From contig JAMCZU010000023.1 in assembly GCA_023485405.1 (NCBI GenBank), positions 1-37,587 of the forward strand: a stretch of DNA of 37,587 bases. The letters run 5' to 3'. Numbering within the stretch: position 1 is the first letter of the stretch; each line of letters opens with the position of its first letter. This document shows positions 23,375-29,780 of the stretch, piece after piece. The stretch comes from Patescibacteria group bacterium. GTDB taxonomy: Bacteria > Patescibacteriota > UBA1384 > UBA12157 > JAENIV01. Made by a program: the position numbers and the translations under genes. The notes under the pieces were generated by a model that was given only the letters and a program-made list of their open reading frames with translations, was not told the origin of the DNA and searched no databases.

Positions 23375-24253
23375 TTATGGAAAAGTAGCTCCTTGAGTCG
23401 CACCATGATTAGTCTCATCATCGTAAGCTTTTTCGCGAGCATTGTAATCTGCAAAAATATTGTTGCCTGTACTGCTGACTAAACTCTGGACATCTTCACC
23501 ACAAGTGGCCGAATTTGGTAGCGACAAAAGAGCATTTAAAATCGCCTGCGCTCCTTCAACTGCAATGTCTTTATGACCATTTTCATGAGTAATTAAGTTA
23601 GTCATATATCTTTGCCAATTTTCTGCTAATCCTGCTTGAGCATTACCTGGATCTTCCCATTTGGGATAGAAAAAATCCACCTTAACACCAACAGTAACAT
23701 CTTTGATATTGCAACCACCAGCGACTGGTTTGTAATTATATACCCAGCTAATGTAATAGGAAGTATAAGCGTCATAAGCTTCCCCTCCACTTTTAGCACC
23801 ACATTCATTTAACTGAGCTCTCACTTCATAAGGAGTGTAACCATAAACTTGATAATAATGCGTATCAATATCTTGCTTTAATCCTGGATTACTAGGACTA
23901 ATATTTGTCGGGATAGAATCTACTAACTGAAGATGCTCGCAAGATGAAGGTTCAGGGTAGCTTTGATTTTGAGTCGTTTTTGTTGCTTTTGGTGTCGCTG
24001 TTGGAGAAATATTTATTGGTGTAGCACTACTACTAAATTTAGGTGAAGGAATCTTGGTATCGGCGCTAGATCTAAAAAGTGAGAGAAAAGGAAAAATACC
24101 TGAAAGAACAATCAGGATTAACAATAAAAGACAACAGCCACCACCCAAAAAACACCAAAGTTTATTACGTTTTGGCTTTGACTCTTTTTTATCTTTAACC
24201 GGTTCTTTTTCTTCTGGTATAGTTCCCTCCCGGGTAGTAGAACTTCGACACAT
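23375..24253 (-). CDS. Membrane-anchored HExxH metalloprotease-like protein (DUF922)
   Basis: Up to 292 aa: a short charged cytoplasmic N-terminus (EEKEPVKDKKESKPKRNK), a TM segment (CFLGGGCCLLLLILIVLSGIF), a Ser/Thr/Pro linker, then a DUF922-type domain. That domain has HYYQVYGYTPYEVRAQL, the zinc motif His223-Glu-Asn-Gly-His227 (ITHENGHKDIA) and several Cys. It should be a zinc peptidase facing outward. The start is uncertain: ATG 24253 has no SD and its first codons lie in an inverted repeat, while GGGAGGG is followed 4 nt later by ATA (codon 12). Confidence 0.8.
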   Translation of the reverse strand: MCRSSTTREGTIPEEKEPVKDKKESKPKRNKLWCFLGGGCCLLLLILIVLSGIFPFLSLFRSSADTKIPSPKFSSSATPINISPTATPKATKTTQNQSYPEPSSCEHLQLVDSIPTNISPSNPGLKQDIDTHYYQVYGYTPYEVRAQLNECGAKSGGEAYDAYTSYYISWVYNYKPVAGGCNIKDVTVGVKVDFFYPKWEDPGNAQAGLAENWQRYMTNLITHENGHKDIAVEGAQAILNALLSLPNSATCGEDVQSLVSSTGNNIFADYNAREKAYDDETNHGATQGATFP

Positions 24254-24297
24254 TTTTAAAAAAATGCGATAGCATTTGTCGAAGTTTCACTACCCGG
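24230..24297. repeat. Inverted repeat with nested terminator hairpin
   Basis: Left arm 24230-24250 (CCGGGTAGTAGAACTTCGAC) and right arm 24277-24297 match inversely in 19 of 21 positions. The loop contains AAATGC-TATC-GCATTTTTTT on the minus strand, a Rho-independent terminator for the upstream gene. The left arm includes the first codons of the DUF922 ORF. Confidence 0.8.
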
Positions 24298-24314: not shown

Positions 24315-24827
24315 TTAAATCTTTGCTGCTTTAATTATACCCGTTTTTCTTTTTGTCACAAAGAGCACAAATTCATAAAATCCAAACATTGAGCCGACAT
24401 AAAAAAGATCACCTAAAATAGTATTTTTAAAAAACGGAATAGCCAAAAAGTAACACTGCGTAATTCCTTCAATGGTTTTTGGATACCAAGGAGTAGCAGC
24501 CCAAACAGCAAAATTAGTCATCAAAAAAAAGATGACTGAGCCTAAAAATGTTGCCCCTAAAATATTGGAAAAATTTTTATGGTTTTTAAGCCATAACCCA
24601 ATCAAACCAATCAGTAAGAAACTTAAGTAAATTGAAAAAGTAACCCAAAACTCAGCAAAACCAATAAAAATATCTGAAAAAAGCATCGCCAAAAGTGGCA
24701 CCGCTAAAGCATATTTTTTATTTAAGTAAACACCGCCAAAAAGCCCTAATGCCGCAATCGGCGCAAAGTTCGGCAGATGAGGTATTAGTCTTAAAACAAC
24801 ACCTGCAATAATAAAGAAAATCGCCAT
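24315..24827 (-). CDS. DUF6580-type membrane protein (ECF S-component-like)
   Basis: 170 aa, five to six TM segments. The signature RLIPHLPNFAPIAALGLFGG, then FSDIFIGF and TNFAVWAATPWYPKT, matches DUF6580 proteins, which resemble substrate-binding S components of energy-coupling-factor transporters. It lies downstream of a cobalamin-riboswitch-controlled gene, so uptake of cobalamin or a related corrinoid is the natural inference. No EcfA or EcfT gene is in this window. GGGAG lies 6 nt before the ATG. Confidence 0.75.
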   Translation of the reverse strand: MAIFFIIAGVVLRLIPHLPNFAPIAALGLFGGVYLNKKYALAVPLLAMLFSDIFIGFAEFWVTFSIYLSFLLIGLIGLWLKNHKNFSNILGATFLGSVIFFLMTNFAVWAATPWYPKTIEGITQCYFLAIPFFKNTILGDLFYVGSMFGFYEFVLFVTKRKTGIIKAAKI

Positions 24828-24888
24828 TATTTCTCCCGCTCCGTGTCCCGCCGTAGCGAGACCGGAAGTCCTCCGAAGCGAAATCTAT

Positions 24889-24918
24889 TTGCAAATTCCA
24901 ATAATTTGGATATTGCAA
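24889..24918 (-). other. Hairpin between the DUF4430 and DUF6580 genes
   Basis: TTGCA...TCCAA-ATTA-TTGGA...TGCAA-type inverted repeat in the 124-bp gap. It has no T tract, so it is more likely an mRNA processing or stability element than a terminator. The rest of the gap is GC-richer (CGCTACGGCGGGACACGG) and unexplained. Confidence 0.4.
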
Positions 24919-24951
24919 GAGATTGAGCGCTGGAGGATATTACATTTATTT

Positions 24952-25602
24952 TTATTCAAATTTCCAAGTTGTCACATCGTTGACAAAAACCGGCTGACTC
25001 GATGCCCCCACTGACGAAAATTGACCATTATAGTAAAACATCCAATATTTCTGATCTTTGCCACCACATATTCCACTAATACAATTTATCATCGCGCCTA
25101 AATCGCCATAGTATTGGTAACTCAATGTAAAATTATTTTCCTCGGAAGCACGAAGTAAAACCGAAAAAGCTGTATCGTTTTCTTTTAGATTTACTTTGTA
25201 ACTTGGTAGGCCCTGAATTTCAACTGTGGCTGTTTTTTGAGGTATTGGCGTAGATGTAGGAGTAGCAATAGGAATTGAGGTGGGCGCAAAATTAATTGCA
25301 GTCGAACTGCGATGTGGTTTTGACGTTGAATTTGGTGTTAGCGTTGGCACAAAAACGGGTGTTTCTTGCGTTACCAAAAATGGAGTTGATTGAGTTTCGA
25401 CTGATTGGGGTGTTGGTATAATTTGATTTTTAGTTGGTTGAGCTGTTGGCGTAATATTAGATGTTACCGCCACCGGCACTTTTTGTTTTATCTTGGCTTC
25501 AGCCAATTTTGGGTTTTTTAAAAACACCCCGCCTAAATAAATTAAACCAATTAAAGTCATTGCCACAACCGGAAACCAAGTAAATTGCCAAAATTTTTTC
25601 AC
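24952..25602 (-). CDS. DUF4430 surface protein, probable corrinoid binder
   Basis: 216 aa. One N-terminal TM segment (FTWFPVVAMTLIGLIYLGGVF) anchors it; a Thr/Pro-rich linker (about 45-125) spans the envelope. The C-terminal 90 residues form a DUF4430 domain (transcobalamin-like C-terminal domain): NDTAFSVLLRASEENNF, YYGDLGAMINCI, KYWMFYYNGQ. Such domains bind or recruit cobalamin-like ligands at the surface. The gene follows a cobalamin riboswitch with terminator, which supports a corrinoid role. AAGGAGG lies before the GTG start at 25602. The next gene downstream is the DUF6580 transporter-like protein. Confidence 0.8.
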   Translation of the reverse strand: MKKFWQFTWFPVVAMTLIGLIYLGGVFLKNPKLAEAKIKQKVPVAVTSNITPTAQPTKNQIIPTPQSVETQSTPFLVTQETPVFVPTLTPNSTSKPHRSSTAINFAPTSIPIATPTSTPIPQKTATVEIQGLPSYKVNLKENDTAFSVLLRASEENNFTLSYQYYGDLGAMINCISGICGGKDQKYWMFYYNGQFSSVGASSQPVFVNDVTTWKFE

Positions 25603-25617
25603 TAAACCTCCTTAAAA

Positions 25618-25682
25618 TTAAAAAATCCTTAGTCAGTCGAAACAAAATAAAAAACTAAGGTTTTATTTGCCTTTTCGACCGA
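25618..25682 (-). terminator. Riboswitch-controlled terminator with competing antiterminator
   Basis: On the minus strand CCTTAG (25660-25655) pairs with CTAAGG (25632-25627), followed by ATTTTTT. An alternative stem joins TCGGTCGAAA (25682-25673) with TTTCGACTGA (25642-25633). The two stems cross and exclude each other, as expected for a transcriptional riboswitch. Confidence 0.75.
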
Positions 25683-25693
25683 AGGCTTAAAAT

Positions 25694-25793
25694 TAACTTA
25701 TAAGTAGGTTTTCTGGCTTGTCCGACGTCATGTCGGATTCACAGTAGCGGGACTGCTCCTGATTCCCACAGGATTACCCATACTCATAAGTTT
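25694..25793 (-). promoter_or_regulatory. Cobalamin riboswitch
   Basis: The minus strand carries GGGAATCAGGAGCAGTCCCG, then CTACTGTGA, a variable stem (TCCGACATGACGTCGGA) and the B12 box AAGCCAGAAAACCTACTT. AACTTAT and ATAAGTT close it as P1 (25792-25786 with 25701-25695). At about 100 nt it is a compact form. It lies 90 nt upstream of the DUF4430 gene and is followed by a terminator/antiterminator pair, so cobalamin should switch off the DUF4430-DUF6580 genes. Confidence 0.92.
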
Positions 25794-25888
25794 AAATTTT
25801 AAAGGTAGTTTTAAGTTATCAATGGTATATTTCTTTGTCAACTGTGGATAAGTACACCCAACAGTTTTTAATTATAATAAAATATTAG

Positions 25889-27637
25889 TTACCTTAACCC
25901 AATCTTGTCAACCACAATTTGACGAGGGTCAGAAGGACCTGCACACGCTATTTGTACAATCACCCGAGTCGCCCATGCTGGTGGATTAAGTGGCACATAT
26001 ATCCACTGATTAGTTACGCCCGCCAAGTATGGATTTGTCTCCAATGCACCAGTATTTGTTATAGTTGAGTAATATCGAACATACACCCCATTCCAATTCG
26101 TTGACGTATGATCCGGCTGATATAAATACTGGATGTTTGTCTGTACCAAAGAGTTTGCACCTACTATCTGTACCTGTGCTCTAAATATCATTGGTCTTCC
26201 AGTTTGTATGAGTCTATCCATACCAACAGTTTGACCATTATTAAGTGTAGCTGGTAGTGCCACAGTTGTACCACTACCATCATTCGGCCACGGTGCAGAC
26301 CAAGCAGTTCGACCTAACACCGCTCCAGTAGCGGCATCAATAAACGGAGCAATTGTCTTGGCGAGAGCTAGAGTATCAGGATGAACCAAAGCAATATATC
26401 CAGCATTGCGAGCAGCAATCAAGCGATCAATATCTGCTTTCCAAAACGCCCAGTTATGATTAATACCATTGGCATGGAAATTAAACATAGTACGAGCATC
26501 AGTATACCTCAAATTAGTGGCGTTAGCGGCAACACAGTTAGCGGCTTCTCCTATTGTAATTCTATGTATAAGATAACGCGGTTGACTGACACTCCCATTT
26601 TTGCTATAAATATTACCTCCATCAAGACCACCAGTAGAAAACAGGTAACCTCCACGAGTTAATTCGCCATAGTTACCTCTCATATTGTCAATCCCAACAT
26701 TAGCATTATCAGGAAATCCACCATTAGCAGCATAAGCTCTTACATTTGCCCCAACTTCTTTATAAATATATTCAGTCATAGCAGCATCTGAGCTAACTGC
26801 ACCAGCTTTAATCGGTCTATAATACCAATTCGTGATATTTACAGTCGCATCTGCAACAGCAGCTTCAGTAGATAAACTATTTAAATAATCTCTACTAGCA
26901 ATTAATTCTTTTATCCAATTTGAATCGGTTACTGGATAAGAGTTACTGTGTGTCCAGGTATGTCCTAAAATTGATGCGCCAGCTACAGTTTTTAACATAT
27001 GTAAATGACGAGCATACATCTTTCCAGCAGTTCCAACAAAACTAGAAGGCACAGAATGGCCACAGGGAACTCCATTTTGAATAAGATACTGAAATGGAGT
27101 AATACCACCACCAATATCAGCAGTAAAAAAATTATCAGCACCGTCATCATTTGTGAGTGCTACCAGCGGCATGTCCCAATCTGTACCCCAATAATCATTG
27201 GGTATATTAGGAGTTTGAGTACCAAGCTGTCCAACTTTGAGGGAAATATCAGAGGAGCGCATTACTGTTATATACGCATTGTTAGATGGTGTAGGAATTA
27301 CACCCTCACCACAAATTACTGTATATCTATTTGTTTCAGATGCTCCCGCGGCAACCGCCGCATCTACAGCAGCCTGAACAGTAGTATAATCACAGCCACT
27401 CGTACCAACAGTATAAATATTGGAAGGTTTACCAGCTTTTAAATTAAGGGCAGTTTGGGTAGCAGTTGAAACTGGCTTGTTGGCATCGGAAGTATTGTCA
27501 ACATTAGTTAAACCAACCTTACTTTTATCAATTGGTTTTAGAGTCCCATCAGCTTCGTGAGAAGTATTTAAAAATTCATTTAAAATATTCCCCCAATTAC
27601 CATCATCACCACCAGGGATAGGCAATCTGGCTGTCAT
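25889..27637 (-). CDS. Tail-fibre-like protein with NodB-like deacetylase domain (copy 2)
   Basis: 582 aa. Residues 1-35 hold LPIPGGDDGNWGNILNEFLN, shared with the paralogue at 27897. Residues 38-70 (VGLTNVDNTSDANKPVSTAT) match a repeat typical of phage tail fibres. From about 145 a polysaccharide-deacetylase-like domain follows: LTNDDG (NodB motif 1), GHTWTHSN (motif 2, metal His), and late FNFHANGINH and VHPDTL. The end (from about 480) is beta-rich and probably binds carbohydrate. No signal peptide of its own. Its ATG overlaps the stop of the Tat-signal gene as ATGA, with AAGGGG upstream. It is the last gene of the Tat operon. It would act on an extracellular glycan, if exported through the partner. 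Confidence 0.75.
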   Translation of the reverse strand: MTARLPIPGGDDGNWGNILNEFLNTSHEADGTLKPIDKSKVGLTNVDNTSDANKPVSTATQTALNLKAGKPSNIYTVGTSGCDYTTVQAAVDAAVAAGASETNRYTVICGEGVIPTPSNNAYITVMRSSDISLKVGQLGTQTPNIPNDYWGTDWDMPLVALTNDDGADNFFTADIGGGITPFQYLIQNGVPCGHSVPSSFVGTAGKMYARHLHMLKTVAGASILGHTWTHSNSYPVTDSNWIKELIASRDYLNSLSTEAAVADATVNITNWYYRPIKAGAVSSDAAMTEYIYKEVGANVRAYAANGGFPDNANVGIDNMRGNYGELTRGGYLFSTGGLDGGNIYSKNGSVSQPRYLIHRITIGEAANCVAANATNLRYTDARTMFNFHANGINHNWAFWKADIDRLIAARNAGYIALVHPDTLALAKTIAPFIDAATGAVLGRTAWSAPWPNDGSGTTVALPATLNNGQTVGMDRLIQTGRPMIFRAQVQIVGANSLVQTNIQYLYQPDHTSTNWNGVYVRYYSTITNTGALETNPYLAGVTNQWIYVPLNPPAWATRVIVQIACAGPSDPRQIVVDKIGLR

Positions 27638-27896: not shown

Positions 27897-29780
27897 TTAA
27901 TCAAGCATACAATTAATATTTGTAATTTGAAAAGTTGCACCATCAGGAACACGAAGTAATATTTCAGTACGACCATTAGACCAATCAGGCACAAGAATAG
28001 GGATTGAAAAAGTAGACCAAGTATTCGGCACATATCTACTATCCCAAAGAACATAATATAAAGCTGTTTCAGTTAGATTAACATCATCAGTAGGATCATA
28101 AAAAACACCATAAGTCCATTCAACATTAGCAGCAACAGCAAGTTTTATTCTCATGCTAAATATCGAATGACGACCAGGAATACAATTTAAATATAAAAAG
28201 ATATTTTTTGTAGAACCAGAAGAATTAACAACTTGGAGATAATTACCTTCAGTTACATCATTACCAATAGTAACTGTACCACCATCAACATTTATAAAAT
28301 CAGCTCGATCGGCTGGCCAAGCTCCAACACTAAAATTCCAAAAATCTTCACGAGTTATCATACCAACAGGTGATTGAATAATATGCGCAGCATCGTAAAT
28401 TGGTGATTGAGCTTGAACACCAAGATGAAGAGCATCGCAAGTCACAGCATCAACACGCCTGGTCGGATAAGTTGCTCGATCTTCACGAAGAGCCACAACA
28501 GCTTGAACAAAATATGTAAGCGGTAATTTATTCGCAGCATCTAAAGGGTCATGAATTAAAACTTCTAATCTTGCACCAGGCCTAGCACAACGCTCAAGCA
28601 AAGCCTTTGCAGCAGCCAATGACGAAAAGACACTAATGCCAATATACCTTTTAAAATGAGGAATTGGTCCAGGCCAACCAATCGAACCGCTATCCCCAAT
28701 AACATAAGAAGAAGACCACTCAACATTTTCTCGAATATGGCGCGCTATCCATTTATCAAGATCAACAGAATTTTCAACCAATGATGCAACATTAGCAGCA
28801 TCACCAGCAGTTCCCCAAGTACCAGGAAAAACAAAACCACGAATTGGCGCACCTAATCTATTGGAAGGAGCAGAAGCTCTAGTAATATCACGAAGTTCAG
28901 CAATAGAAGTATTAACTTCATTAGTTAGCTCAGCCATTGTAGCCGGGCCATTTCCATGAGTATACGAATGAGAAGCAAGAGAGCAACCATATTTTTCAAC
29001 TAAAGTACAAATTTGAGCAGTGGTGAAATGACTGGCAGTGCCAATAAGATTATTCACTATGGCATGTGTGACTGGTATACCATAATAAGCACAATACTCA
29101 GCCGCAGACTTATTCACACCATTAATAGCAAAAGCGGCATCAGCAATCAGCCAGTTTGAATATCCATCATCTGACCGAAGAGCAACCAACATTCCAGTTT
29201 GATTTAATGAATAAGGAAATTGGGTTACTTCATCGGCAGGATATAATCCTTGGCTATGCCGAACTGGAGCATTTAAAAATTTTACATCAACATTGGCCGC
29301 TTTAGTAAAAACATGATCGCAGCCCGGCATACCTAAAATTAAATAACGATTACTTGCAGTCGCTATTGCCGCAGCAGCTGTAACTGCATCTTGTAAAACA
29401 GTATAGTCACAGCCAGAAGCACCAACCGTGAAAACATTGGCTTTTTTTAATAAATTTGATTTAGTAATTTTCTTGGCAGTGCCACCATCGTTGATGGGAA
29501 TTTCTAAAGTCTCATTGGTCGTGGCAAGAGCAGACAGTCCAGCTGTTGCAGGTTGTTTGGTGTTAAAAGTAACATGGTCTCCTTGAGTTAAATAACCATC
29601 TTGACCATCAGTGGCTGCCCCTAATTTTGTTTTGATCGTTGCTTGAGTTTCATCTCCAGTATTAGTACCTGTGGTATTCTTTAGAGTACCATCATCATTA
29701 TGCGCAGTATTTAAAAATTCATTTAAAATATTCCCCCAATTACCATCGTCACCACCAGGGATAGGCAATCTGGCTGTCAT
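27897..29780 (-). CDS. Tail-fibre-like protein with NodB-like deacetylase domain (copy 1)
   Basis: 627 aa. The N-terminus shares LPIPGGDDGNWGNILNEFLN with the other copy. Then comes TGTNTGDETQATIKTKLGAA and a TQGDHVTFNTKQP segment, both like phage tail-fibre repeats. The deacetylase-like domain has LRSDDGYSNW (NodB motif 1 Asp), SHSYTHGNG (motif 2 His pair), GFVFPGTWG and LIHDPLDA. A C-terminal beta-sandwich (about 500-627) looks carbohydrate-binding. No signal peptide. ATGA overlap with the Tat-signal gene upstream. It belongs to the tatA-tatC transcript. Enzyme activity is inferred from motifs only. Confidence 0.78.
   Translation of the reverse strand: MTARLPIPGGDDGNWGNILNEFLNTAHNDDGTLKNTTGTNTGDETQATIKTKLGAATDGQDGYLTQGDHVTFNTKQPATAGLSALATTNETLEIPINDGGTAKKITKSNLLKKANVFTVGASGCDYTVLQDAVTAAAAIATASNRYLILGMPGCDHVFTKAANVDVKFLNAPVRHSQGLYPADEVTQFPYSLNQTGMLVALRSDDGYSNWLIADAAFAINGVNKSAAEYCAYYGIPVTHAIVNNLIGTASHFTTAQICTLVEKYGCSLASHSYTHGNGPATMAELTNEVNTSIAELRDITRASAPSNRLGAPIRGFVFPGTWGTAGDAANVASLVENSVDLDKWIARHIRENVEWSSSYVIGDSGSIGWPGPIPHFKRYIGISVFSSLAAAKALLERCARPGARLEVLIHDPLDAANKLPLTYFVQAVVALREDRATYPTRRVDAVTCDALHLGVQAQSPIYDAAHIIQSPVGMITREDFWNFSVGAWPADRADFINVDGGTVTIGNDVTEGNYLQVVNSSGSTKNIFLYLNCIPGRHSIFSMRIKLAVAANVEWTYGVFYDPTDDVNLTETALYYVLWDSRYVPNTWSTFSIPILVPDWSNGRTEILLRVPDGATFQITNINCMLD

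Follow-up and report, generated by a model that had tools for sequence, protein, structure and literature searches.

We have analysed a stretch of 37,587 nucleotides from a bacterium of the Patescibacteria group (GenBank assembly GCA_023485405.1, contig JAMCZU010000023.1, forward strand), referred to as the window, in which a cobalamin (vitamin B12) riboswitch is followed by a gene for a DUF4430 protein and, after a spacer of 124 nt, by a gene for a DUF6580 membrane protein, all on the minus strand. The source organism is related to Berkelbacteria, within the same order, and its genome (832 kb, 95% complete) contains a single match to the cobalamin riboswitch family RF00174. An earlier sequence-only reading of positions 24315-25793 had taken the locus for a minimal route of corrinoid capture and uptake in an organism expected not to synthesize B12, with the riboswitch ahead of a DUF4430 protein anchored in the membrane and of a DUF6580 protein resembling the S-component of an energy-coupling factor (ECF) transporter. 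The order of the elements on one strand and the family matches (PF14478 and PF20221) agree with this description. We consider it very probable that the two genes form a riboswitch-controlled B12 scavenging pair, consisting of a DUF4430 capture protein and a solitary S-component-like DUF6580 protein, which feeds the ribonucleotide reductase NrdJ of a Patescibacterium unable to make the vitamin. The features of the locus, from 5' to 3' on the minus strand, are the following.

25882..25911, minus strand: promoter-like site 5' of the riboswitch (TTGACA, 18 nt, TAATAT; 10 of 12 positions in a consensus scan, such matches being no more numerous than expected by chance)
25686..25802, minus strand: compact cobalamin riboswitch aptamer (RF00174, 48.9 bits, E 2e-9)
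25669..25686, minus strand: P13-like hairpin GCCUU-CGGUCGAA-AAGGC, putative competitor of the antiterminator (from sequence and computed energies)
25634..25681, minus strand: predicted antiterminator, 25681-25673 (CGGUCGAAA) pairing with 25642-25634 (UUUCGACUG)
25618..25660, minus strand: predicted intrinsic terminator, CCUUAGU...ACUAAGG and then a U run
25607..25613, minus strand: ribosome-binding site AAGGAGG, as read from the sequence
24952..25602, minus strand: DUF4430 protein of 216 aa with N-terminal membrane anchor, Pro/Thr-rich linker and C-terminal DUF4430 domain (PF14478, E 6e-12)
24315..24827, minus strand: DUF6580 membrane protein of 170 aa, proposed solitary corrinoid transporter with ECF S-component fold (PF20221, E 5e-49)

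Gene neighbourhood in related Patescibacteria

The locus was compared with 195 genomes of relatives, which are also related to one another. A cobalamin riboswitch is found in 49 of them, one apiece, and the recurrent gene order is NrdJ, CobA, riboswitch, DUF4430, DUF6580 and thioredoxin, with NrdJ often rather than always present. DUF6580 and DUF4430 occur in 67 genomes each; 61 genomes have both and 12 have one alone (Fisher p 3e-36, a value that overstates the independence of the genomes). Forty of the 67 DUF6580 genes adjoin a DUF4430 gene, 48 have NrdJ or CobA within 6 kb on their own strand, and 17 have a cobalamin riboswitch no more than 3 kb upstream, such that at least one of these links exists for 61 of the 67.

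The host genome was covered by targeted searches and in selected stretches. NrdJ and CobA are located there on a different contig from the DUF4430-DUF6580 pair. Contig C11 of this genome opens with a second DUF4430 gene, which is followed by thioredoxin and by downstream genes like those of locus L038 (different family, same order). Since C11 has kept these genes, the riboswitch cassette was probably relocated.

In a number of distant Patescibacteria (L033, L046, L050, L060, L061, L067, L037, L047, L064, L048, L054, L049 and L068), riboswitch matches lie just ahead of genes for large soluble proteins. These belong to several unrelated families, and those that were scanned had no Pfam family; in L033, a ClpB-like AAA protein comes after the large soluble protein.

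B12 demand and supply

NrdJ, a ribonucleotide reductase that depends on B12 (NF006417, 1085 bits), is encoded in the host genome, with a CobA-type adenosyltransferase directly after it. A B12-dependent enzyme, which the sequence-only reading would need to find in the genome, is thus present, and NrdJ is the one such enzyme found there; the B12-binding domain PF02310 gave no match in the host genome. A search for CbiC, a marker of corrin synthesis, was negative for all 195 relatives and positive for 7 of 14 control genomes. Because NrdJ and CobA are present and CbiC and PF02310 were not found, the demand would be for adenosylcobalamin in the synthesis of DNA precursors, and judging from this gene content the supply must be external. 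A search of the literature returned no relevant paper on Patescibacteria (Candidate Phyla Radiation) with a cobalamin riboswitch or a B12-dependent reductase.

Among the relatives, 62 of the 195 have NrdJ above the cut-off and yet no DUF6580, and other unrecognised B12 routes must therefore exist in the phylum.

DUF6580 in other phyla

Bacteroidota, Ignavibacteria and Zixibacteria likewise carry DUF6580, as a scan of named genomes with a narrower alignment showed. A cobalamin riboswitch is present at 17 of the 28 tested loci from these phyla. It stands directly 5' of DUF6580 in L132, L133, L138, L139 and L145, and at other loci 5' of a gene for a TonB receptor that precedes DUF6580. For all five receptors tested, the best NCBIfam match was the B12 receptor TIGR01779, at a score below its cut-off, and the beta-propeller proteins encoded next to DUF6580 are DUF5074 proteins, which may be BtuG-like. 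No DUF4430 was detected beside DUF6580 in these Bacteroidota-type loci, save for a weak match in an unclassified bacterium (L135). Since the partner varies with the envelope while DUF6580 and the control by B12 stay, DUF6580 appears to be the common inner-membrane step.

Predicted fold of DUF6580

The DUF6580 protein of the window matches PF20221 with 167.1 bits (cut-off 27), and its AlphaFold2 model has a pLDDT of 93 and a pTM of 0.85. A Foldseek comparison of this model with the PDB gave ECF S-components for all of the best 12 matches (TM 0.48-0.58), with BtuM in complex with hydroxycobalamin at rank 1 (E 0.09, probability 0.99, TM 0.52); a comparison with S-components of the BtuM/CbrT type had been proposed in the sequence-only reading. 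For a model from the Bacteroidota branch, S-components were the sole good matches, with TM 0.56-0.59 for the three that had a probability of at least 0.8. On the sequence level, a profile of 34 DUF6580 sequences found one PDB match at E <=10, namely chain A of 6FNP, the structure of ECF-CbrT (E 9.5e-6).

Conserved across both branches of DUF6580 are R13, H17, N20, D52, G56, F100, N105, Y115, G121, P131 and F132. The AxxxA motif serves the docking of EcfT, and the small residues that form it in helix 1 of CbrT are not retained in DUF6580. We found no paper on DUF6580 in the literature searched.

The DUF4430 protein

The DUF4430 family profile, searched against the PDB, matches the beta domain at the C-terminus of haptocorrin (E 4e-8), intrinsic factor and transcobalamin-2, which carry B12 in humans. 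Because of the N-terminal anchor and the Pro/Thr-rich linker, the DUF4430 domain of the window protein should be exposed outside the cell, and the DUF4430 proteins of some relatives look lipoprotein-like. In other Patescibacteria, cobalamin riboswitches stand ahead of alpha/alpha-toroid proteins that are fused to or adjoin DUF4430 (L034, L041, L055, L062, L040, L069 and L072), which is how the two domains are laid out in the animal carriers. The toroid protein of L069 matches the eukaryotic cobalamin-binding family at a score below the threshold, and a sequence search of the PDB gave no convincing match for the toroid proteins of the relatives. The host genome holds a third, weak relative of DUF4430, a protein of 104 aa with a lipoprotein-like signal (G000:C15, L184 5401-5715).

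The riboswitch leader

The RF00174 score of the aptamer lies above the gathering threshold of 31.5 bits, so that the compact B12 riboswitch proposed earlier is confirmed; its aptamer extends to 25802, slightly beyond the 25793 at which the proposal had placed the boundary. The P6 extension is only 17 nt long, the loop of P2 is short and the large peripheral P8-P12 region is missing. After the aptamer, the leader contains in order the hairpin 25686-25669, the 5' arm of the terminator, the 3' arm of the antiterminator, the 3' arm of the terminator and the U run. The hairpin has 5 bp and occupies the 5' arm of the antiterminator, while the terminator pairs 25660-25654 with 25633-25627, with the U run behind. 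As the complementary arms are interleaved, terminator and antiterminator exclude each other, as had been claimed from the sequence. Their computed energies are close, with -12.1 kcal/mol for the hairpin plus terminator and -11.2 kcal/mol for the antiterminator including the flanking CCUU/AAGG.

An equally good stem with tail was obtained in 22 of 500 shuffled leaders, and the whole leader is more stable than its shuffles (z -3.0). A terminator-like hairpin between aptamer and gene occurs in 13 of 20 related leaders, against 1.65 expected, and a CTTCGG hairpin is found at the equivalent position in 9 of the 20, the window included. L038 has a near-identical terminator (CCUUAGUU...AACUAAGG-UUUUUU), and equivalents of the antiterminator, with partly altered pairing, are legible in the leaders of L044, L045 and L053. 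The loop strand CGGUC faces GAUCG in L044, GACCG in L045 and CGACUG in both the window and L053, all of which can pair when inspected by eye. Sequence comparison thus suggests an expression platform common to near relatives. Known B12-uptake riboswitches repress in the presence of the vitamin (e.g., PMC8941943), and for this reason we take the riboswitch of the window to be an OFF switch as well.

Other features of the window

A 24-nt inverted repeat (88% complementary) at 24230-24297 covers the start of a DUF922 gene and the gap before DUF6580. Two adjacent paralogues at 25889-27637 and 27897-29780 have the common N-terminus MTARLPIPGGDDGNWGNILNEFLN, and ahead of each lies a near-identical open reading frame of 63-67 aa with a Tat-like signal.

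Discussion

The assignment of the locus to corrinoid capture and uptake by a non-synthesizer, as first read from the sequence, is a strong one for evidence that is computational throughout, being backed by the gene neighbourhood, the co-occurrence of the two families, the second set of phyla, the fold match and the B12 enzymology. The function thereby given to DUF6580, that of a membrane carrier in B12 uptake, draws on gene context, the S-component fold and the profile match to CbrT. Of the ECF-S-like character claimed for it, the fold stands and the energisation by EcfAT does not: EcfT/CbiQ (PF02361) is missing in the host genome and in every DUF6580-bearing relative, the sole carrier among the 195 being a genome without DUF6580, and the ECF module was rejected as its motor on these grounds. 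Also rejected was an importer of the BtuCD/BtuCDF type, the FecCD permease being unmatched in the host genome and its matches in the relatives weak. The absence of EcfT from these genomes makes it plausible that DUF6580 transports without an ECF module, as does BtuM, which transports alone in E. coli (PMC6072759).

The following mechanism can be envisaged. At low levels of cobalamin in the cell, the leader would adopt the antiterminator and both genes would be transcribed, while binding of cobalamin to the aptamer would allow the terminator to form and transcription to halt. The membrane-anchored DUF4430 protein would capture corrinoid at the cell exterior, and DUF6580, which like DUF4430 would have to bind it, would move it across the one membrane of the cell with no ECF module involved. 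Finally, CobA would convert it to adenosylcobalamin, thus trapping the corrinoid and supplying NrdJ; this trapping could also give the transport its direction.

Several observations weigh against this interpretation. The compared genomes are not independent of each other, and the Foldseek E-values are weak (0.09 or higher), such that the fold assignment leans on TM values of 0.5-0.6 and on the fact that the matches are all of one kind. The match to CbrT is gone with a narrower profile (E 0.27) and with the Bacteroidota profile (no match), and since such profiles lose it, the relationship to CbrT is suggestive. Solitary CbrT furthermore failed to sustain growth of E. coli (PMC5997447), and kinship with CbrT alone is therefore no predictor of ECF-independent transport. 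The invariant cysteine of BtuM has no invariant counterpart in DUF6580, where, of 48 sequences, 37 have Cys and 11 have Ser at the position of C125. As to the other parts of the system, the 216-aa DUF4430 protein of the window lacks, in a Pfam scan, the alpha/alpha-barrel (alpha) domain of the animal carriers, and inspection by eye of L5 and the loop of the downstream hairpin revealed no obvious complementarity, so that no L5-L13 kissing loop was recognised.

A different possibility is that DUF6580 is an ordinary S-component that works with an ATPase and transmembrane motor too divergent to be recognised, in which case transport would be ATP-driven. Its S-component fold and the requirement of CbrT for its ECF module (PMC5997447) would fit this, but we regard it as unlikely in view of the distribution of CbiQ/EcfT, the lack of conservation of the AxxxA small residues and the fact that no ABC (ATP-binding cassette) gene was seen to recur in DUF6580 clusters. 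Less probable still, and in our view rather improbable, is that DUF6580 carries another compound of the B12 economy, such as cobalt, a lower-ligand base (e.g., dimethylbenzimidazole) or a nucleoside destined for the reductase, while DUF4430 serves another transporter. The neighbourhood of DUF6580 is indeed linked to NrdJ/CobA as strongly as to the riboswitch, and a fold alone does not reveal a ligand. However, the BtuB-like receptor and DUF5074 beta-propeller neighbours in Bacteroidota and the similarity to the B12-specific CbrT point to corrinoids, the host genome has no match to an alternative B12 permease (FecCD), and cobalt alone would be useless without corrin synthesis (CbiC is absent). 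That the riboswitch governs DUF4430 alone, with DUF6580 as a read-through passenger, is very improbable, since other phyla place the riboswitch directly 5' of DUF6580 and a DUF6580 gene located elsewhere remains with NrdJ/CobA, even though there is a 124-nt spacer between the two genes and several relatives have the riboswitch with DUF4430 alone and DUF6580 elsewhere with NrdJ.

If B12 scavenging by the DUF4430-DUF6580 pair is extended to the family as a whole, we slightly favour the view that DUF6580 constitutes a large family of stand-alone B12 transporters of S-component fold in Patescibacteria and Bacteroidota-type phyla. These would dispense with an ATP-driven module, and the envelope would determine the outer partner, which would be of the transcobalamin type in cells with a single membrane and BtuB/BtuG-like in cells with two. 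A function is thus proposed for a domain of unknown function, together with an explicit B12 route, serving DNA-precursor synthesis, for many Patescibacteria that do not make the vitamin. The proposal also links a bacterial protein, related to the B12 carriers of humans, with a particular membrane transporter, and it opens the way to a clean test of whether an ECF motor is dispensable for import by S-component-like proteins.

It is instructive to compare the locus with known systems. Its aptamer has the core and the B12-box region in common with RF00174, but it is compact, without the large P8-P12 region, and is followed by a leader hairpin and terminator that are common to near relatives. BtuM of Thiobacillus denitrificans (PMC6072759), the best fold match in the PDB, is, like DUF6580, a small B12-linked membrane protein of S-component fold in genomes without an ECF module. 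It differs in having an invariant cobalt-binding cysteine and in being mainly proteobacterial, whereas DUF6580 has no invariant cysteine and other partners. With ECF-CbrT of Lactobacillus delbrueckii (6FNP; PMC5997447), DUF6580 shares the clustering of a B12 S-component gene with nrdJ and an adenosyltransferase gene, the latter being of the CobA type here and PduO there; however, CbrT needs EcfAA'T and fails alone in E. coli, whereas EcfT is missing here. The Btu loci of Bacteroidetes (BtuB, BtuG, BtuH; PMC8941943) likewise place surface capture and uptake under a cobalamin riboswitch. They use BtuB in the outer and BtuFCD in the inner membrane, whereas the operon of the window has no TonB receptor and has DUF6580 instead of BtuFCD. 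Finally, the C-terminal beta domain of transcobalamin, intrinsic factor and haptocorrin is homologous to the DUF4430 domain of the window protein. The latter, in contrast to the animal carriers, is anchored in the membrane and has no alpha/alpha-barrel domain, while its relatives have toroid proteins with or beside DUF4430.
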